Shown: piece by piece, positions 14,449 to 26,331 of the stretch
Numbering within the stretch: position 1 is the first letter of the stretch
How the letters are laid out: every line of letters begins with the position of its first letter
NCBI GenBank assembly: GCA_012838225.1
Contig: DUPT01000001.1
Coordinates: 1-34,023, forward strand
Source of the DNA: Tissierellia bacterium
GTDB lineage: Bacteria; Bacillota; Clostridia; Peptostreptococcales; Acidaminobacteraceae
DNA length: 34,023 bases
Direction: 5' to 3'
The notes under the pieces: generated by a model
The model's database searches: none
What the model saw: the letters and a program-made list of their open reading frames with translations, nothing else
What the model was told of the DNA's origin: nothing
Translations under genes and position numbers: made by a program

Positions 14449-14799
14449 ATGAGAAATATAACAAGGGTAACTTCAATAATGCTGGCGTTGTTTTTACTGA
14501 CGATATCTCTTGCAACGCCTATATCTTTTGCACACAACCACGAAGCCAGCATTAACGAACTGCTTCAGATTACAGATCTTAGTCTCGATAACTATGTAAT
14601 TAATGGCGTAACATGTTGCCATGCCCCAAGAGTTGTTCGAGAGTATTACGTAAGACATTCTTTCCCGGCACCGGAAGGCTACTGTACTAAGGTTCTGTTT
14701 TATGAAAAAGATGTCTGCTATAACTGTTCAACCGTACATATTCCACTCCACTTAGCATACAGCGCACCTGGTTGTGGCATTGATCATGCGTTCAATTAG
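14449..14799 (+). CDS. Secreted six-cysteine protein, unknown function
   Basis: A 116-residue protein with an N-terminal signal peptide: basic MRNITR, a hydrophobic core to about residue 23, and a likely cleavage after ISFA (residue 28). The mature part has six cysteines (C56, C57, C79, C90, C93, C109) and several histidines, including a CCH and a CxxC. It could be disulfide-bonded or bind metal. No family is recognised. A weak SD (AAGGCGG) sits five bases before the ATG. Codon use is AT-rich and unlike the neighbours. A bidirectional terminator follows. Confidence 0.6.
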   Translation: MRNITRVTSIMLALFLLTISLATPISFAHNHEASINELLQITDLSLDNYVINGVTCCHAPRVVREYYVRHSFPAPEGYCTKVLFYEKDVCYNCSTVHIPLHLAYSAPGCGIDHAFN

Positions 14800-16139: not shown

Positions 16140-17249
16140 CTATTTTGAAAAATATTCTTCGATCACGGGCATATGCGTCGCGACCGGGATCGCCTGGGGG
16201 CAGACCTCTTCACACGCTCGGCAGCCCACACAGCCCGAGGCGTCAAGGTCTAAGCCGTCATACAGCCTCCGTCCGGCTGATTTGTTCTTAGAGGCCGTGA
16301 TATTATAGGCCTCAAATGCTCCGGGGATATGGACCCCATAGGGACAGGGCATGCAGTAGTTACACCTGGTGCACGGCACCAAAGCCATGGTATCATAGAC
16401 CGCCTTGACGGCTTCGTAGTGGGCCAGCTCAGCTGGAGTCAGCTCTTCGAAGGTCTGATTGGCCAGGGCGACATTATGATCGACCTGAGCTTTATCATTC
16501 ATCCCGCTAAGCACCACACTGACCTCGGGCTTATCCCACAGCCAGCGAAAGGCGTATTCGACCGGATCGCCCGGGATCATGGCCGAGACCACCTCCGGCG
16601 GATCGGCCAGCTTGCCGCCTAAAAGCGGCTCCATAATGATGATGCCAAGGCCCTTGGCATGGGCATCGTATAAGCCCTGCAGGGTCGATTGAAAATCGGT
16701 ATTGATATAATTCATCTGCAGCTGACAAAAATCCCAATCAGAAAAGCCGTTTAGGATCTGATAAAAGGTGTCTTTATCGTCGTGGAAGCTAAAGCCCAGC
16801 TGCCTGATCCGGCCGGCGGCCTTTTCTTTTAGCATCTCATCGAGGATGTTTAGATCCAGCACTGTCTGCCACCGCTCCTTGCCCAGGGCATGCAGCAGGT
16901 ATAGGTCGATATGATCGGTCTGGAGCTTTTCCAACTGTTCACTTAAAATGCTCGAGAAATCCTCGGTCCTCTCCAGCTTCCAGATGGGCGATTTCGTCGC
17001 CAAAATAACCCGCTCCCGGTAGCCATCCTGTAGTGCGCGTCCAACTGCCACTTCACTCATTTCATTGTGATACGGATAAGCCGTATCGATATATGTAATA
17101 CCAGAATCGATTGCGTGGCGAATCAGTTCAATTGCTTCGTCCATTCGTAGCGTTGACTCCCCCTGCTCATTGACATCACTTGGCATTCGCATACAGCCAA
17201 AGCCAAGGATGGTAGCTGAGGGACCCGATCCAATTTGTCTTTGTTCCAT
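16140..17249 (-). CDS. Aldo/keto reductase with C-terminal 4Fe-4S domain
   Basis: A 369-residue enzyme. The TIM-barrel AKR part spans about 1-285: GFGCMRMP at the N-terminus, GITYIDTAYPYHNEMSEVAVGRAL with the Asp/Tyr pair, LATKSPIW with the catalytic Lys, and DLYLLHAL. The C-terminal Fe-S part has CTRCNYCMPCPYG and CVGCRACEEVCPQAIPV, typical of the ferredoxin-linked AKR group in anaerobes. The physiological substrate is unknown. Start ATG 17249 is chosen by AKR homology and a purine-rich GGAAGG/AGGTAGG site. A TATACT box at 17272-17277 (minus) is a likely -10. A second AKR of this type lies at 27478-28488 with moderate similarity. Confidence 0.9.
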   Translation of the reverse strand: MEQRQIGSGPSATILGFGCMRMPSDVNEQGESTLRMDEAIELIRHAIDSGITYIDTAYPYHNEMSEVAVGRALQDGYRERVILATKSPIWKLERTEDFSSILSEQLEKLQTDHIDLYLLHALGKERWQTVLDLNILDEMLKEKAAGRIRQLGFSFHDDKDTFYQILNGFSDWDFCQLQMNYINTDFQSTLQGLYDAHAKGLGIIIMEPLLGGKLADPPEVVSAMIPGDPVEYAFRWLWDKPEVSVVLSGMNDKAQVDHNVALANQTFEELTPAELAHYEAVKAVYDTMALVPCTRCNYCMPCPYGVHIPGAFEAYNITASKNKSAGRRLYDGLDLDASGCVGCRACEEVCPQAIPVATHMPVIEEYFSK

Positions 17250-17316
17250 AGGCCTACCTTCCTTATCTATTAGTATACACGAAAACTGAATAGACATTTG
17301 ACTGGGTATGGTTGTA

Positions 17317-17346
17317 TTCTTGTTAGAAGCGAGTGAGTTGTATAAT
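17317..17346 (+). promoter_or_regulatory. Promoter of the serpin operon
   Basis: -35 TTCTTG (17317-17322), 18-base spacer, perfect -10 TATAAT (17341-17346), about 40 bases before the first serpin ATG. No promoter or terminator is seen between the three serpin genes. Confidence 0.6.
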
Positions 17347-17385
17347 AGTGAACAATTCATTCTGTGAAATAAAACAGGGGGTTTT

Positions 17386-18651
17386 ATGAAAAAAATAGTC
17401 TTATTTCTACTCATCATCAGTCTGGTCGGTTGCTCGAGTGTACCGCCCTTGGAGGAGCCTCAGACGAATGAAACAACAGAGCCTTCATCCACTACACCCG
17501 TCCGACATTTAGCTGATAGTCAGCCGCTACTTTTGTCTAAGGACTACTATGACTATGCGGCTGATCATCCCACCAGCGAAGAGCTTCTACAGTCGATCAA
17601 CCAGTTCGCCCGGGAAAGTGGCGTTCAATTACTCAGCGGCGAAGCCAATGATAACTATTCTCCCATCAGCCTGTATATGGCGCTCGCTATGGTGGCGACC
17701 GGTGCCAAGGGTGAGACAGCGGAAGAAATTTATCAGCTGTTAGGCCGTGAGGTCGATCCCGAAGCCCTGGCCCAAGAGATGCAACAGCTCAATCAATTGC
17801 TCAATGTCCAGACGGAAGGCGGACGGATCAAATTGGCCAACTCCATCTGGAGTCAGCAAGATTTGCCGTTTGAACCGACCTTTATAAAGAGGTTGAACGA
17901 CAAATTTGCTGCCGCCTTATTTGAAGTTGATTTTAGTCTGCCCGAAACTGCAGAAGAAATGTCAAACTGGGTATCGGATATGACAGAGGGGCTGATCAAG
18001 CCTGAGTTTACCGACCTGGAAAATATGATCAGCGTCTTGATCAATACCCTGTATTTTAAAGAAGGCTGGGTCTATCCCTTTGAGGAAGCCAATACCAAAC
18101 CGGACATCTTCCACGGCATCAATGGCGATATCGAAAAAGACTTCCTTCAGCAAAGGAAAGAGTTTGAGTATATCGATCATGATGGGATCGAGGGTGTCAT
18201 CCTACCGTTTGAATTGTCTCGGATGATCATCCTAAAAAAATCGGGGACTAATCCCAAGACCTTGCTTGAGGATTATTCACTCGAAGAGTTAACGAAATTC
18301 AAACAGCGAGCCACGGTTAACCTTTCCCTGCCTAAATTTAAGTTTGATAACAGCTATGATTTGATCGACACCTTAAAGAGTCTGGGCATTCATCAGGCCT
18401 TTGATCTGGGACTGGCCGACTTTAGTGCCATGACGCCAACCGGCTCGGCCATCTCTCAGGTCCGTCAAGATAGCTTTATTGCACTCGATGAGACCGGGGT
18501 GGAAGCCGCTGCCATGACGATGATCGGCAATGAAAGAGCGATGATTCTAGAAGATCCGCCTATCGTTGATTTAAGCTTCGATGAGCCGTTTTTGTTCATT
18601 ATTGAAAGCCGAGACTCTGTCCCGTTGTTTATCGGCACCCTGACTAATTAG
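17386..18651 (+). CDS. Lipoprotein serpin 1 (serine protease inhibitor)
   Basis: A 421-residue serpin with a lipoprotein signal (lipobox LVGC, lipidated Cys C16) and a Ser/Thr/Glu-rich linker. The fold starts near residue 60 and contains the canonical NDNYSPISLYMALAMVATGAKG shutter segment. INTLYFKEGWVYPF and SRMIILKKSG are also family features. The reactive-centre hinge is GVEAAAMT from G371. Its small residues permit loop insertion, so this should be an inhibitory serpin. Counting from the hinge, P1 is near R384/A385. The loop before the SFDEPF anchor is longer than in alpha-1-antitrypsin. The C-terminus PLFIGTLTN is standard. AGGGGG lies five bases upstream of ATG. It is the first of three tandem copies. 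Confidence 0.95.
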   Translation: MKKIVLFLLIISLVGCSSVPPLEEPQTNETTEPSSTTPVRHLADSQPLLLSKDYYDYAADHPTSEELLQSINQFARESGVQLLSGEANDNYSPISLYMALAMVATGAKGETAEEIYQLLGREVDPEALAQEMQQLNQLLNVQTEGGRIKLANSIWSQQDLPFEPTFIKRLNDKFAAALFEVDFSLPETAEEMSNWVSDMTEGLIKPEFTDLENMISVLINTLYFKEGWVYPFEEANTKPDIFHGINGDIEKDFLQQRKEFEYIDHDGIEGVILPFELSRMIILKKSGTNPKTLLEDYSLEELTKFKQRATVNLSLPKFKFDNSYDLIDTLKSLGIHQAFDLGLADFSAMTPTGSAISQVRQDSFIALDETGVEAAAMTMIGNERAMILEDPPIVDLSFDEPFLFIIESRDSVPLFIGTLTN

Positions 18652-18665
18652 CAATAGGAGGAAAC

Positions 18666-19877
18666 ATGAAACGACTGATTGCACTATGTCTGATCGGACT
18701 GCTTTTGATCAGCTGCTCTCCAGGCTACACCGCCCATCAGGCGATAACATCTCAGCCACTAAGTGAAGATCAGTATCGAGAGTTGTTGCGATCAAGCCCA
18801 CCAGCTGACGAAACCATTCAGGCCATTCAGAGCTTTGCCCGGCACAGCTCGTCTGCCCTATTAAGCGGCGAGTCGAATGATAACTACTCGCCTATCAGCC
18901 TCTATCTGGCACTATCCATGGTCGCTACCGGCGCTGATGGTGAGACTGCCCGCCAAATCTATGGCACTTTAGACAAACCGGTCGACCCTGATGCTCTGGC
19001 CAGTGACATGTCTCAGCTGATCGAGCTGCTAAATATAAAGACGGACCAGTCGCGCATTCAGCTGAGTAACTCCATCTGGAACCAGCAGGACATACCGTTT
19101 TTAGATGGCTATATCAAGCGTTTAAATGAGCAGTTTCAAGCTTCTCTGTTTGAAGTCGATTTTATACAACCGGCAACTTTAAAGCATATGCAGGACTGGG
19201 TAGCCAAACAGACAAATGATTTGATCAAGCCTGAATTCGACCGATTAGACGATGCCATCAGCGTACTGATCAACACCCTATATTATAAGGATAGCTGGCT
19301 ACGGACCTTCGAAGAGTATGCTACCGAGCCCGATATCTTCCATGGCGTAAACGGTGATGTCACCAAGGATTTTATGCACCGGGACGACTATATGAGCTAT
19401 ATCAAGCAGGGAGATATTGAGGGTGTCAGTCTGTATACTAAAACCGGACGGGTGGTTTTTTTAAAGCAATCGGGGGTAAACCCGAAAGAGATACTCCAGA
19501 GCGAGGATCTCTATCAGTTGATCAATAACTTTGAGTCGCGGGAAGTCCGTCTGGCCTTGCCAAAATTCAGCTTTGAAAACCACTATGACTTAAAAACAAT
19601 GCTAAAAGAACTTGGTATCATTGATGCGTTCGATCGTGATTTGGCCGATCTTTCAGCCACCAGCGAGCTGCCACTGTATATCTCTCAGATATTTCAAGAC
19701 AGCTTTATTGAACTCAATGAAGACGGCATCGAAGCCGCCGCGGCAACAGTCGTTGTAGCACCGACATCCGCTCCGCCGGCCGATGAGCCGATCGAGCTTC
19801 GCTTCGATGAACCTTTTGTCTATCTGATTGAAGATCAATCAGGACTACCGCTATTTATCGGTACACTATCTCAATAA
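18666..19877 (+). CDS. Lipoprotein serpin 2
   Basis: A 403-residue serpin with lipobox LISC (C17). It has the conserved NDNYSPISLYLALSMVATGADG segment, the INTLYYKDSW strand, and the FDEPFVYLIED and PLFIGTLSQ end. The hinge GIEAAAAT from G354 is close to ideal for an inhibitory serpin. The reactive loop is Val/Pro-rich (VVVAPTSAPPADEP) and the P1-P1' count falls at S368-A369. It has no extended linker after the lipid anchor. A central segment is less conserved than in its sisters (GVSLYTKTGRVVFL in place of the usual LPF). AGGAGG lies 14 bases after serpin 1 and four before the ATG. Confidence 0.95.
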   Translation: MKRLIALCLIGLLLISCSPGYTAHQAITSQPLSEDQYRELLRSSPPADETIQAIQSFARHSSSALLSGESNDNYSPISLYLALSMVATGADGETARQIYGTLDKPVDPDALASDMSQLIELLNIKTDQSRIQLSNSIWNQQDIPFLDGYIKRLNEQFQASLFEVDFIQPATLKHMQDWVAKQTNDLIKPEFDRLDDAISVLINTLYYKDSWLRTFEEYATEPDIFHGVNGDVTKDFMHRDDYMSYIKQGDIEGVSLYTKTGRVVFLKQSGVNPKEILQSEDLYQLINNFESREVRLALPKFSFENHYDLKTMLKELGIIDAFDRDLADLSATSELPLYISQIFQDSFIELNEDGIEAAAATVVVAPTSAPPADEPIELRFDEPFVYLIEDQSGLPLFIGTLSQ

Positions 19878-19888
19878 TGGAGGCCCAT

Positions 19889-21220
19889 ATGAAAAAGTTA
19901 ATCATCAGTCTGCTGATCATGATCGTACTGCTAAGCAGCTGTACTCCAACCGGCACAGAACCTGAGCCTAAGCCAAGCGAGGAAACACCGGCCGAGCCCG
20001 AGCCTACACCACCTGAGGAAACACCGGCTGAGCCCGAGCCTAATCCAACAGATGAAGCATCAGGCGACAAACATTTTGTCGTCCATAGTGCACCGGATAA
20101 ATCGCCCAGCACTCTAGAGGAAGTCCAGGCACTTCGTATTGATAAGCCACTCTCAGACGAGACGATCCAGGCCATCAAGAATTTTATGCAAGCCTCGACA
20201 CCACTACTCTTAAGCGGTGAGAAGAATGATAATTACTCGCCCCTAAGCCTCTACCTGGCACTGGCCATGGCTTCTACCGGAGCTGAGGCTGAGTCGCAGG
20301 CAGAAATTATCCAAGCGCTTCAGTTGGAAAACCCGGACGACTTAGCCGATCAGATGGGTCTGATCATGGAGCGTCTGAATGTTGAAACATCAGAGGGACG
20401 AATTCGTTTGGCCAACTCGATTTGGAACCAATACAACTTCCCCTTTGAAAAAGACTATATCCAGACGCTAAACGATAAGTTCCAGGCCAGTCTGTTTGAA
20501 GTCGACTTTAAAAGCCCGGAGGCGGGTGAGCAAATGAGTCAGTGGGTGTCGGAAAAAACCGAAGGCTTGATCCAACCGGAATTTGACGATACTTCAGACT
20601 TTATCAGCGTGTTGTTCAACGCCCTCTATTTTAAGGAAAGCTGGCTGGCACCATTCCAGGCAGAGCTGACTAAGCCTGATACCTTCCGCGGAATTGAGGG
20701 GGAAAGTGAAAAAGACTTCCTTCACTCCAGCGACAAGGGCATGTATATCAGTCATGAGGGTGTCGAAGGGATGATCTTACCCTTTGAATATTCGCGAATG
20801 ATTTTACTAAAAAAGTCTGGCTCTAATCCGATGGATATTCTTAAAGACTATTCATTAGACGACCTGACAGCCTCTGCTTCTCTGGCGATGATCAATCTTA
20901 AGCTCCCTAAGTTTGAGTACAGTAATGAATATAATCTAAAAGAGATGCTAGAAGGTCTGGGCATGAGCAAGGTATTTGATCCGGACGAAGCCGACTTTTC
21001 CGGCATCAGCCCGGAGCCGCTGTTTATCTCTGATATTCTGCAGGATAGCTTCATCTCATTAGATGAAGACGGCGTCGAAGCGGCTGCTGTCACCACGATT
21101 GGCTTTGGCACCACCTCAATCATTGACAAACAAGTCGAGCTGGCGTTTGACGAACCGTTTCTGTTTGTGATCGAGAGTCCGGAAGGACTTCCCTTATTTG
21201 TCGGTACAGTAACCAAATAA
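19889..21220 (+). CDS. Lipoprotein serpin 3 with Pro/Glu repeat linker
   Basis: A 443-residue serpin with lipobox LSSC (C18). An acidic Pro/Glu/Thr-rich spacer follows at about 20-55, holding a 12-residue tandem repeat. The serpin domain starts near residue 80: NDNYSPLSLYLALAMASTGAEA, FNALYFKESWLAPF, SRMILLKKSG, and a PLFVGTVTK end. The hinge GVEAAAVT from G395 is of inhibitory type. The P1-P1' count falls at T409-S410 in a Gly/Thr-rich loop. GGAGG lies five bases before ATG 19889; the ATG at 19877 overlaps that SD and is rejected. The spacer would hold the inhibitor further from the membrane than serpin 2. Confidence 0.95.
   Translation: MKKLIISLLIMIVLLSSCTPTGTEPEPKPSEETPAEPEPTPPEETPAEPEPNPTDEASGDKHFVVHSAPDKSPSTLEEVQALRIDKPLSDETIQAIKNFMQASTPLLLSGEKNDNYSPLSLYLALAMASTGAEAESQAEIIQALQLENPDDLADQMGLIMERLNVETSEGRIRLANSIWNQYNFPFEKDYIQTLNDKFQASLFEVDFKSPEAGEQMSQWVSEKTEGLIQPEFDDTSDFISVLFNALYFKESWLAPFQAELTKPDTFRGIEGESEKDFLHSSDKGMYISHEGVEGMILPFEYSRMILLKKSGSNPMDILKDYSLDDLTASASLAMINLKLPKFEYSNEYNLKEMLEGLGMSKVFDPDEADFSGISPEPLFISDILQDSFISLDEDGVEAAAVTTIGFGTTSIIDKQVELAFDEPFLFVIESPEGLPLFVGTVTK
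19979..20050 (+). repeat. 36-bp tandem repeat encoding the serpin 3 stalk
   Basis: Two direct copies of a 36-bp unit begin at 19979 and 20015 (both start GAGGAAACACCGGC). They encode EETPAEPEPTPP and EETPAEPEPNPT. Near identity at the DNA level suggests a recent slip-type duplication and possible length variation. Confidence 0.8.
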
Positions 21221-21240: not shown

Positions 21241-21270
21241 AACGGCCCTGAGGGGCCGTTTGTTATTTTT
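21241..21270 (+). terminator. Terminator of the serpin operon
   Basis: AACGGCCC (21241-21248) pairs perfectly with GGGCCGTT (21253-21260), followed by TGTTATTTTT. Confidence 0.9.
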
Positions 21271-21719: not shown

Positions 21720-22801
21720 TGAAAAGAAAACGCATTATCCATTCCGGCATTTCTACCTTTGAGCGATATCTGACCCTGTGGGTCTTCATCTGTATGGTGA
21801 TCGGTGTGCTGATCGGTGTCTATCTGCCGGCTATCCCTCAATTCTTAGGTAACTTTGAATATGCTAATGTATCCGTCCCGGTAGCCATCTTGATCTGGCT
21901 GATGATCTATCCCATGATGCTAAAGGTTGACTTTAAAAGTATCAAAAAGGTGGGTGAAAATCCGCGAGGGCTGATTATTACCTGGGTCACGAACTGGCTG
22001 ATCAAGCCATTTACCATGTATGCCATCGCCGCCTTTTTCTTCTTTATCGTATTCAAGAAATGGATCACACCGGATCTGGCCACCCAGTATTTAGCGGGAG
22101 CAGTCTTACTAGGTGCTGCGCCTTGCACGGCCATGGTCTTTGTCTGGTCTCATTTGACCAGAGGTAATCCAGCCTATACCGTGGTACAGGTGGCAACCAA
22201 TGACATCATCATACTGGTGGGCTTTGTCCCGATCGTAGCCTTTCTTTTGGGAATGAGTAATATCACGATCCCCTGGACCACCCTATTCCTATCCGTTATT
22301 CTTTTTGTCGTCATTCCCTTGGCGGCCGGGATCATTTCCCGCACGCTGATCACAAAAAATAAAGGACTGGAATACTTTGAGAAGGCCTTTATCCCGAAGT
22401 TTAGCAATGTCACTATCACCGGTCTGCTCCTCACACTTATTATCATCTTCTCCTTCCAGGGAAGAACCATCATCGAGAACCCGTTTAATATTATTTTGAT
22501 TGCCGTACCGCTGATCATCCAAACCTTCCTAATCTTCTTTATCGCTTACTTCTGGTCGAAGGCGTGGAAGTTAACTCACGATATTGCTGCCCCAGCGGGA
22601 ATGATTGGAGCCTCCAATTTCTTTGAGTTAGCGGTGGCGGTCGCGATTTCTCTCTTCGGACTGGGCTCCGGAGCCGCTCTGGCGACGGTGGTCGGCGTAT
22701 TGGTAGAAGTACCCGTCATGCTCCAGCTTGTCAGGATTGCCAATGGAACACGCTCCTGGTTTAGACCGAGCGAAGGTGATAGAAGCTATGAAACCACTTA
22801 A
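21719..22801 (+). CDS. acr3: ACR3-family arsenite efflux permease
   Basis: A 360-residue membrane transporter of the BASS/ACR3 superfamily that exports arsenite. It has about ten hydrophobic helices. The conserved cysteine is C136 in GAAPCTAMVFVWSHLTRGNPAYT, and the conserved glutamate is in GVLVEVPVML near the end. The start is GTG at 21719, overlapping the arsR stop by one base. There is only a weak purine-rich region upstream, so initiation probably depends on coupling to arsR. The 3' end overlaps the next gene by 14 bases. Confidence 0.93.
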   Translation: MKRKRIIHSGISTFERYLTLWVFICMVIGVLIGVYLPAIPQFLGNFEYANVSVPVAILIWLMIYPMMLKVDFKSIKKVGENPRGLIITWVTNWLIKPFTMYAIAAFFFFIVFKKWITPDLATQYLAGAVLLGAAPCTAMVFVWSHLTRGNPAYTVVQVATNDIIILVGFVPIVAFLLGMSNITIPWTTLFLSVILFVVIPLAAGIISRTLITKNKGLEYFEKAFIPKFSNVTITGLLLTLIIIFSFQGRTIIENPFNIILIAVPLIIQTFLIFFIAYFWSKAWKLTHDIAAPAGMIGASNFFELAVAVAISLFGLGSGAALATVVGVLVEVPVMLQLVRIANGTRSWFRPSEGDRSYETT

Positions 22802-23669
22802 AATAGAGTTTTTATATCTGGATCTAACTAGCTGCGATAGATGTTTAGGTACTGAGAAAAATCTATCGCAAGCGATCGATCAAATGTCAGATTATGCGCA
22901 CAGCCAAGGACGCATCATCGAATTAGAGCCGATTGAGATCTCCTCAGCCGAGCTGGCGATCAAGCACCACTTTTACACTTCGCCCACGATCCGGATCGAT
23001 TCTCAGGATATTCAGGGTGATTTCTTAGAAAACGACTGCGCTTGTTGCGGTGATATCTGCGGCACAGAGGTTGATTGTCGGAGCTGGCACTATGAAGGCC
23101 AAGCCTATGATGTCCCGCCAATTGGTCTGATCACAAGTGCCATCAGACAAGCCATCGATCATAAGGTTCTCTTTCGACCAGCCAAGCCGGCCTATGTCCT
23201 ACCGGAAAACCTCGAGCGATACTTTTCTGCCCTAGCCAACAAGAAAGGAAAGACTATGAAACCAAAGGTTGCCTTCATCTGCGTTCACAATTCCTGCCGA
23301 TCCCAAATGGCCGAGGCACTGAGTAAGCTCTACGCCTCCGATGTCTATGAAGCCTACTCCGCCGGGACTGAGACCAAGCCTCAGATCAATCAGGATGCCG
23401 TTCGCATTATCAAGGATAAATACGGCATCGATATGAATGAGACCCAGCACTCCAAGCTGATCGATGAAATTCCAGAGGTCGATATCGTCGTCACCATGGG
23501 CTGCAATGTCATCTGTCCTTTTATGCCCTCACAGCACGAAGAGGACTGGGGGTTAGATGATCCGACCGGACAGCCCGATGAAGCGTTTCTAAAAACAGCG
23601 CAGATCATTGAGGATAAGGTGAAGGATCTGGCCAGACGGATCTCAGACAAAGAAATCGAGCTTTCCTAA
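22788..23669 (+). CDS. arsC: DUF2703 domain fused to thioredoxin-type arsenate reductase (ArsC)
   Basis: A 293-residue fusion. Residues 1-140 are a DUF2703-like thioredoxin-fold domain with CxxC at C16/C19 and a cysteine cluster (C84, C86, C87, C91, C97; core CACCGDICG). This family recurs in arsenic operons. Residues 157-293 are a low-molecular-weight-phosphatase-type ArsC with the P-loop C165-VHNSC-R171 and a TMGCNVICP segment carrying further redox cysteines. ArsC reduces arsenate to arsenite for Acr3 export. M157 has its own AAGGA six bases upstream, so a free 137-residue ArsC may also be made. ATG 22788 is the chosen start for the fusion; AGGTGA precedes it within acr3. Confidence 0.85.
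   Translation: MKPLKIEFLYLDLTSCDRCLGTEKNLSQAIDQMSDYAHSQGRIIELEPIEISSAELAIKHHFYTSPTIRIDSQDIQGDFLENDCACCGDICGTEVDCRSWHYEGQAYDVPPIGLITSAIRQAIDHKVLFRPAKPAYVLPENLERYFSALANKKGKTMKPKVAFICVHNSCRSQMAEALSKLYASDVYEAYSAGTETKPQINQDAVRIIKDKYGIDMNETQHSKLIDEIPEVDIVVTMGCNVICPFMPSQHEEDWGLDDPTGQPDEAFLKTAQIIEDKVKDLARRISDKEIELS
23244..23258 (+). promoter_or_regulatory. Internal ribosome-binding site and start for free ArsC
   Basis: AAAGGAA at 23244-23250 is followed, five bases later, by an in-frame ATG (23256-23258) exactly at the ArsC domain boundary. The 137-residue product from here matches the usual length of stand-alone ArsC (about 130). Confidence 0.6.
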
Positions 23670-23838: not shown

Positions 23839-25635
23839 ATGACTAAACACGAAGGATTGCAAGCCTGGGTCAACGAGATCGAGAGCTTATGCAGGCCTGA
23901 CCAAGTCGTCTGGATCAACGGATCGCAGGAAGAAAACGATCAGTTACTTAAGGAGATGGTAGAATCTGGGGCTGCCATCGAACTCAACCAAGAGTATCAC
24001 CCCGGCTGTTACTTATTCCGAAGCGATGCCTCAGACGTTGCCCGGGTCGAGGATCGGACCTATATCGCATCTCGCAATCAAGAAGATGCCGGCCCGACCA
24101 ACAACTGGATCGACCCGGACGAACTCAAAGCGACCATGACCGACCTCTATGATGGCTGTATGAAGGGGCGCACCATGTATGTCATCCCGTTTTCGATGGG
24201 ACCGATCGACTCACCGCTGAGTAAGATCGGCGTCGAGATCACCGACAGCCCCTATGTCGTCGTCAATATGCGGATCATGACCCGTATGGGTAGCGCCGCC
24301 CTCGAAAAACTGGGAACCGATGGCGAGTTCATCCCGTGTCTCCACTCCGTCGGTGCACCGCTCGAAGAAGGCCAAGCCGATGTCCCGTGGCCGTGTGCTC
24401 CAATGGATGAAAAGTATATCTCTCACTTCCCGGAAGAACGCACCATCTGGAGCTATGGCTCAGGCTATGGCGGCAATGCTCTCCTAGGCAAGAAATGTTT
24501 GGCGCTTCGGATCGCATCAGCTCAAGCCCGAGATGAAGGCTGGCTGGCCGAGCATATGCTGATCCTCAAGCTGACCGATCCCCAAGGTGAAGTCAGCTAT
24601 GTGGCGGCGGCCTTCCCGAGTGCCTGTGGCAAAACCAACCTGGCTATGCTGGTGCCAACCATCCCCGGCTGGAAGGTCGAGACCGTCGGCGATGATATCG
24701 CCTGGATGCGCTTTGGTGAGGATGGCCGACTCTATGCCATCAATCCCGAAGCCGGCTTCTTCGGCGTGGCTCCGGGAACCTCGGAGGCCTCTAATCCCAA
24801 CGCCTTGGCCTCTTGTCGCAAAAACACCATCTTCACCAATGTCGCCATGACCAAGGGCAAGCGTGTCTGGTGGGAAGGCATCGGCGTACCGGTACCCGAC
24901 TACCTCGTCGATTGGCGAGGCAATGACTGGACACCAAAGAGCACTGAGAAAGCAGCTCATCCCAACTCCCGCTTCACCGCCCCGGCCTCTCAATGTCCCT
25001 CGATCGCACCCAATTGGGAGGATCCGCAGGGCGTGCCGATCGATGCCATCTTAGTCGGTGGTCGTCGTAAGACCACCATCCCGCTGATCCATGAGAGCTT
25101 TGATTGGAACCACGGCATCTTCTTAGGCTCGATCATGGGCTCAGAGATCACGGCCGCCGTCATCAGTGACAAGATCGGCCAGGTCCGACGTGACCCCTTT
25201 GCCATGCTTCCCTTTATCGGCTACCACGTGGGCGACTACCTGCAGCACTGGCTCGACATCGGTCAGACCGAGGGCGCCAAGCTCCCTAAGCTGTTCTATG
25301 TCAACTGGTTCCGCCGCGGCGCCGACAACCACTTCCTCTGGCCTGGCTTTGGCGATAACAGCCGCGTCCTCAAGTGGGTCCACCAACGAGTCAAGGGTCA
25401 GATCGGAGCCGATGAAACACCGATCGGTCTGATGCCAAAAGACGGCGACATCGACCTGAGCGGACTGGAAGTCCCGGACGAAGACATGGCTGATCTACTG
25501 GCAGTACCGGTCGATGAGTGGCTGGCAGAAGTCGAATCGATCAAACAACACTATCAAAGCTACGGAGAAAAAATGCCACAAGAGCTGTGGCAAGAGCTCG
25601 CGGGTCTAGAAGACAGACTCAAACAAGCAAAATAG
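23839..25635 (+). CDS. pckG: Phosphoenolpyruvate carboxykinase (GTP)
   Basis: A 598-residue cytoplasmic enzyme interconverting oxaloacetate plus GTP with PEP, CO2 and GDP. The length and motifs match the GTP-dependent family rather than the ATP form. The kinase P-loop is FPSACGKTN (259-267) with the GTP-type reactive Cys C263. GDDIAWM (284-290) supplies metal ligands, and [24 protein letters not shown]... covers the substrate region (starts about 184). The C-terminal half has FYVNWFRRG and [15 protein letters not shown]. It is a single-gene unit with its own promoter and terminator. In anaerobes it can run toward oxaloacetate (PEP carboxylation) or gluconeogenesis; direction cannot be read here. 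Confidence 0.97.
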
Positions 25636-25689: not shown

Positions 25690-26331
25690 TTAACGACCTT
25701 GGCGATTTCTACCACCCATTGGACCAAGCTGACTTCCCAGATGATCACATACTCCGTCGCCATCCTCATCGATATACTGAGCTTGATTCAAAGAGCCTTT
25801 AACGCCACCGCCGCCCTTTGCTTCACTGTTCTTACCAAACCGGCCAGAGCCACCCAGTCCGAGACCAGCTTGAGGATTCGTGAAGGCTTTCAGATGATTC
25901 TCTGAACCCTTTAGTAGGTTGGTGAACATTCTGGTGACATCTGCTGGCAGACCCATATCGATCAGTTCTTGATATTGTTTAATGTCGGTTTCTTCGATAT
26001 CGATTGCCATGGCGATACTGTCTTCTATTGAGCCGGGTGCTGTAATCTGTTCGGTTGGTTGAATCAGCTCGATCTCATAGCGCTCCGCGATCCGCTCAAT
26101 CGCCGCGACATGCTTTTGCTCCGCCTTGACAATGCGACTAAAGGGTAGGATGTTCCCATAAGTATCGAGCACCGCTTGATAGCTATCTCTGGCAGTATAT
26201 TCGTCATTTAACGCGTCTTGTAGAATATTTTTCAAGTCTGGTTCCGGGGACTCAGCATAGCTAAGCGGGAGTGAGCCTAGTACCAGTGTCCCAAGTAAGA
26301 GTGTCAAGATGATCAGCTTTCTTGTTTTCAT
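25690..26331 (-). CDS. Secreted DUF2202 ferritin-like protein with DxDGDGxCD tail
   Basis: A 213-residue exported protein. The signal peptide has basic MKTRK, a hydrophobic core and likely cleavage after SYA (residue 26). The ferritin-like DUF2202 helical bundle (about 33-152) shows acidic/His pairs expected for a di-iron site: LNDEYTARDSY, KAEQKHVAAI, AIDIEETDIKQY and GSENHLKAF. A Gly-rich spacer (G-x-G, GGGG) leads to YIDEDGDGVCDH. That is a Ca-loop-like motif shared by other exported clostridial and archaeal proteins. It ends in an Arg/Gly tail. The function is unknown; metal or oxidative stress is a guess. AAGGA lies about nine bases before the ATG. Confidence 0.85.
   Translation of the reverse strand: MKTRKLIILTLLLGTLVLGSLPLSYAESPEPDLKNILQDALNDEYTARDSYQAVLDTYGNILPFSRIVKAEQKHVAAIERIAERYEIELIQPTEQITAPGSIEDSIAMAIDIEETDIKQYQELIDMGLPADVTRMFTNLLKGSENHLKAFTNPQAGLGLGGSGRFGKNSEAKGGGGVKGSLNQAQYIDEDGDGVCDHLGSQLGPMGGRNRQGR

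Follow-up and report, generated by a model that had tools for sequence, protein, structure and literature searches.

What does a bacterium gain from three protease inhibitors encoded one behind the other? The question is raised by region 17386-21220 of the 34,023-nt window (the whole stretch of Tissierellia bacterium DNA that was analysed, to which all positions refer), where three intact serpin genes lie head to tail, all on the plus strand. We consider it probable that their products are membrane-anchored suicide inhibitors, with three diverged baits derived from one ancestor, and that they jointly protect the cell surface from several proteases. An earlier note on this DNA had described three complete lipoprotein serpins in one operon, and the profile scores, lipoboxes, gene spacing and terminator of the array, given here and below, bear this out.

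17376-17381, plus strand: ribosome-binding site (RBS) of serpin 1, AGGGGG (sequence).
17386..18651, plus strand: serpin 1, 421-residue lipoprotein, lipobox LVGC (C16); Pfam Serpin, E 6.7e-73.
18656..18661, plus strand: RBS of serpin 2, AGGAGG (sequence).
18666..19877, plus strand: serpin 2, 403-residue lipoprotein, lipobox LISC (C17); Pfam Serpin, E 1.7e-68.
19879..19883, plus strand: RBS of serpin 3, GGAGG, directly behind the serpin 2 stop codon (sequence).
19889..21220, plus strand: serpin 3, 443-residue lipoprotein, lipobox LSSC (C18), Pro/Glu-rich linker; Pfam Serpin, E 7.4e-72.
21241..21260, plus strand: Rho-independent-type terminator, 8-pair stem and T-rich tail, which ends the array (scan, sequence).

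The gaps within the array are only 14 and 11 nt, the scan detected no terminator-like site in them, and the sole good terminator lies 3' of serpin 3. The single strand, the short gaps and the one terminator after the last gene support the prediction that the three genes form one transcription unit. We place the start of serpin 3 at the ATG at 19889, and not at the alternative ATG at 19877, because GGAGG lies 5 nt before the former and the latter overlaps the end of serpin 2; the residue numbers of the earlier note were already based on this start. The array is not an assembly duplicate, as the genes are only 55-57% identical to each other in DNA, and no serpin was found outside it in the genome (1.85 Mb, 97% complete).

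All three proteins match the Pfam Serpin profile (PF00079, MEROPS I4, bit cut-off 27) with 232-247 bits and nearly in full (profile positions 4-369, 6-368 and 19-368 of 370 for serpins 1, 2 and 3); NCBIfam holds no model that matches them. The AlphaFold2 model, made for serpin 1 only, has a serpin fold (predicted local distance difference test score 83.3, predicted template modelling score 0.82) with a disordered loop at 377-390. Foldseek retrieved conserpin (5cdz, E 2.1e-32) as its best match, and the top matches are all serpins, among them tengpin and many animal serpins; conserpin and tengpin are also the nearest solved structures by sequence. Taken alone, each protein is an ordinary new serpin. 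A short signal peptide that ends in a lipobox stands at the start of each, and nearly all close relatives have a lipobox too; processing to lipoproteins is likely because the genome encodes the lipoprotein signal peptidase LspA (E 3.7e-40). The linkers between the lipobox Cys and the serpin domain are about 52, 35 and 77 residues long in serpins 1, 2 and 3 (our estimate, in which Pfam starts were extrapolated to the domain start where the match begins late). Membrane-anchored prokaryotic serpins have been noted earlier (PMC8233489).

The hinge in front of the reactive loop is of the inhibitory type in all three proteins (ETGVEAAAMT at 369-378 of serpin 1, EDGIEAAAAT in serpin 2, EDGVEAAAVT in serpin 3). 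The consensus used has Glu at P17, Gly at P15, small residues at P12-P9 and an uncharged P14 (usually Thr or Ser); each hinge has P17 Glu, P15 Gly, Ala at P12-P10 and an uncharged P14, which confirms the EAAA reported in the earlier note. Counting from P17 predicts P1 at A385, S368 and T409, the positions that the note had given. In serpin 1 the loop reads MIGNERA/MILE (the slash marks the predicted P1-P1' bond), with R384 at P2 by the same count, and trypsin-like enzymes may also cut after this Arg. The loop of serpin 2, VVVAPTS/APPA, resembles that of a single-copy relative (L028, IIAVAPTSAPPA) in its APTSAPP, and serpin 3, TIGFGTT/SIID, has the Thr-Ser bond seen in many relatives. The sequences of these two baits suggest elastase- or subtilisin-like enzymes. 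Since every predicted P1 is a small residue (Ala, Ser, Thr), the array may span variants of one elastase/subtilisin-like niche, not a broad range. Although P1 is small throughout the trio, P6-P2 differ sharply; the clear departure is found only in serpin 1, with its Arg at P2.

Trapping of the protease as an acyl-enzyme by loop insertion is the standard suicide mechanism of serpins. Serpins 1-3 would be lipidated on the N-terminal Cys, be tethered to the outside of the cytoplasmic membrane by flexible linkers of differing length, and each expose a reactive loop. On cleavage of P1-P1', the protease would be held as the acyl-enzyme and distorted while the loop enters β-sheet A. Local duplicates of a single ancestral surface serpin would have kept the body and hinge while their bait sequences diverged. 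Together the three would spare the cell surface damage by several extracellular proteases: serpins 2 and 3 would probably act on elastase- or subtilisin-like enzymes, and serpin 1 on something different. The genes, their anchoring signal, the fold, the hinge, the shared origin, the synteny and the loop-specific divergence are results of the analysis; the lipidation, the inhibition, the target proteases and the protective role are what we infer in this scheme.

The three proteins differ mainly in the bait loop. Mean identity among serpins 1-3 is 12% over P7-P5' of the loop versus 54% over the scaffold, and 0 of 307 scaffold windows (12 columns each) is as diverged as the loop; this supports the earlier proposal of a conserved scaffold with strongly diverged loops, and the note's own refuting condition, loops that evolve no faster than the scaffold, did not refute it. 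The divergence is robust to register shifts, which match at best 1, 3 and 2 of the 12 loop residues. In single-copy orthologue pairs of the family, the loops mostly fall inside the scaffold's own range, with the exception of L022/L023. The scaffolds are under purifying selection, since the proportion of nonsynonymous differences (pN) is 0.28-0.33 versus 0.75-0.81 for synonymous ones (pS). Recent gene conversion was considered and rejected, as 30-codon windows contain no near-identity block (highest value 0.76).

A maximum-likelihood tree of 42 serpins of the same order joins serpins 1-3 in one clade (support 100/99); the neighbours of this clade are single-copy lipoprotein serpins from the family, in a grouping that is weakly supported. 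Two genes that flank the array serve as markers of the locus:

16140..17249, minus strand: aldo/keto reductase with 4Fe-4S domain, divergent from the array (Pfam; tblastn synteny).
23839..25635, plus strand: GTP-dependent phosphoenolpyruvate carboxykinase (PEPCK), downstream synteny marker (Pfam; tblastn synteny).

In a genome of a sister genus (G006, genus g6), a single serpin stands beside the same divergent reductase and upstream of PEPCK by tblastn synteny, and in G033 a serpin and the reductase occur together on a short contig. Since the trio is monophyletic and the sister genus has a single syntenic serpin, the array is the product of one ancestral serpin that triplicated at this locus in the window's lineage. 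A genome of the same genus (G001) lacks a serpin, but this was set aside as evidence: contigs C206 and C27 of that assembly stop on either side of the locus, in the pirin gene and the arsenate-reductase-like gene, so that the array interval is missing and the genome cannot date the triplication. Horizontal import of the array was likewise rejected, as there is no jump in GC content (about 47% versus 41-58% in the flanks) and the trio groups with members of its own family.

To place the array among its relatives, PF00079 was searched in samples of the family (41 genomes), order (394), class (391) and phylum (299), about 1,000 distinct genomes. The earlier note held that bacterial serpins are usually single genes, and this is true of 128 of the 165 serpin-bearing genomes of the class sample, which have one match (our count); the generalisation has to be qualified, however, as about 18 genomes have a tandem pair on one strand. 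A second clear triple was not found among the roughly 1,000 related genomes, which agrees with the claim that a triple is unusual; the pair in G561 reaches the end of its contig, and that array may extend further. The triple is rare, and tandem duplication is recurrent. The loop could be read in 87 serpins, and these were compared. For 14 of 18 tandem arrays, the loops of paralogues are less alike than those of between-genome pairs of equal scaffold identity (one value per array; a two-sided sign test gives about 0.03 by our arithmetic, which is indicative only, as arrays share genera). P1, by counting, is Thr, Ser or Ala in 44 of 50 single serpins versus 19 of 37 tandem serpins and is thus more varied in the latter. 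The varied P1 and diverged loops of tandem serpins suggest that duplication was selected for target choice.

Some of these tandem loci have features of their own. Four genomes from a different family of this order (f10) have a gene for an extracytoplasmic function (ECF)-type sigma factor (Sigma70_r2, r4) in front of a serpin pair (L041:389-4342, L042:3329-7340, L043:1470-5326, L045:3277-7074). A second gene, also in front of the pair, encodes an N-terminal basic stretch and a membrane-like segment and resembles an anti-sigma factor (Pfam gave no match for the three that were scanned); the arrangement suggests serpins as the output of a surface-stress sigma system. At L044:3152-6865, the first of two adjacent serpins has three SLH (S-layer homology) domains N-terminal to the serpin domain and, by eye, the N-terminus of the second is similar, which points to wall anchoring in place of a lipid anchor. 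In the pair at L068:1-5601 (G704:C84), the loops VGGGGGGTAM and VSGGLVWGIP are rich in glycine, although the scaffolds are 80% identical.

Several observations weigh against three working inhibitors with selected baits. Inhibition by serpins 1-3 is a prediction, and P1 is assigned by counting only. P14 is Val, Ile and Val in place of the usual Thr or Ser, and serpin 1 has Met at P9, a possible brake on loop insertion. Synonymous divergence (dS) among the three genes is saturated, so that positive selection on the loop cannot be claimed, nor told from relaxed constraint. The trend among tandem arrays is modest, and these arrays are only partly independent of each other.

The main rival is a self-directed role, in which the same inhibitors act chiefly on the cell's own cell-wall-anchored subtilase and so spare its own surface proteins. 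The genome has one S8 subtilase (1571 residues, with PA, Fn3-like and three CWB2 cell-wall-binding domains; L054:3348-8060, G000 contig C43), which shares a compartment with the serpins and is of the kind that their small P1 residues suit; moreover, inhibition of endogenous proteases has been reported for Pnserpin and Tkserpin (PMC8233489). However, three different baits would be superfluous for one protease, the gene for the subtilase is on a separate contig, and the annotated neighbours of the array include no identified protease gene. We regard a self-directed role as unlikely, if the most serious competitor. Still less probable, in our judgement, is that one copy works (perhaps serpin 2) and the others drift under relaxed constraint as substrates or decoys. 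Saturated dS, with which adaptive change cannot be shown, would fit, as would the most atypical loop of the set (NERAM in serpin 1, with Met at P9) and the likeness of the serpin 2 loop to that of a single-copy relative. Yet scaffold, hinge, lipobox and RBS are intact in all three despite saturated synonymous sites, and drifting copies would not keep them; the scaffold pN and pS given above argue the same way, with change concentrated in the loop. Non-inhibitory serpins with a binding, chaperone or structural role, for which one could cite the unusual P14 and prokaryotic serpins that are thought non-inhibitory, such as a Streptomyces clade (PMC8233489), are very improbable given Ala at P12-P10 and an uncharged P14 in all three.

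Surface inhibitors with diversified baits, the reading we prefer, can be compared with known systems. Closest are the single-copy lipoprotein serpins of the same family (L028/G006, L029/G033, L030, L031), which have the lipobox architecture of the trio and are 28-37% identical to it by tblastn; those of G006 and G033 also share the reductase neighbour, and that of G006 the downstream PEPCK. They differ in being one gene and not three, and the loops of L028 and L029 are conserved between species (73%), unlike those of the trio. The tandem pairs elsewhere in the order and class (G217, G228, G261, G278, G323, G449, G475, G690, G707, G487, G665 and others) are adjacent same-strand paralogues, and their loops usually resemble each other less than expected, but they comprise two genes, not three; those placed in the tree fall in different scaffold clades, which points to independent origins, and one G323 serpin has SLH domains instead of lipid anchoring. 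The siropins of Eubacterium siraeum have low mutual identity, the source passages on them mention no tandem array, and they are biochemically characterised, unlike the trio. In vertebrates, the clade A and B serpin clusters arose from genes that duplicated locally and then diverged chiefly in the reactive loop. These clusters are eukaryotic and larger, and, unlike the array, neither encode lipoproteins nor form an operon (clade B loci: PMC1308813). The serpin of Bifidobacterium longum and B. breve is a single gene, against three in the array, and that of B. breve is under a two-component system. The Bifidobacterium serpin inhibits elastase-like enzymes, and protection against host proteases has been proposed; the B. 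longum protein is stated to form covalent products with elastases and the B. breve gene to be induced by papain (PMC8012564). More generally, bacterial serpins with elastase-type targets are thought to guard cells against environmental or host proteases (PMC8012564; PMC5127057). We found no description of a bacterial serpin operon or array, or of a tandem array with loop-concentrated divergence, in a searchable literature that is incomplete.

Upstream of serpin 1 lies the region in which the promoter of the array is expected:

17250..17385, plus strand: upstream intergenic region, 136 bp between the divergent aldo/keto reductase gene and serpin 1 (sequence read directly).

A promoter-like match in it at 17291-17320 (predicted promoter at 17291) was rejected as being at chance level (9 found versus 13 expected in shuffles). 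Downstream of the array, Pfam identifies an ArsR regulator, an SBF-match transporter and an LMWPc-match protein, the last two of which we take to be an ACR3-like transporter and an arsenate-reductase-like protein, and then PEPCK. Within this ars gene cluster, 22728-23669 encodes a DUF2703 domain fused to a low-molecular-weight phosphatase/arsenate-reductase-like domain. Further out, 14449-14799 encodes a 116-residue predicted secreted, Cys-containing protein without a Pfam match, and 25690-26331 (minus strand) a DUF2202 protein with a signal peptide and a C-terminal segment, DEDGDGVCDHLGSQLGPMGGRNRQGR, that is possibly metal binding.

We offer, as a tentative idea that we hold at somewhat less than even chance, that tandem serpin loci in this phylum are hot spots of loop diversification, in which an arms race with community or host proteases drives the bait, in parallel to the vertebrate clusters, and that the triple is the most expanded case seen. 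The survey also gives a catalogue of serpins from bacteria whose baits are unusual. The array bears on the physiological role of bacterial serpins: with three putative anchored inhibitors that share a scaffold and differ mainly in the bait, and a single-copy counterpart at the corresponding locus of a sister genus, the gain from added loops becomes testable.

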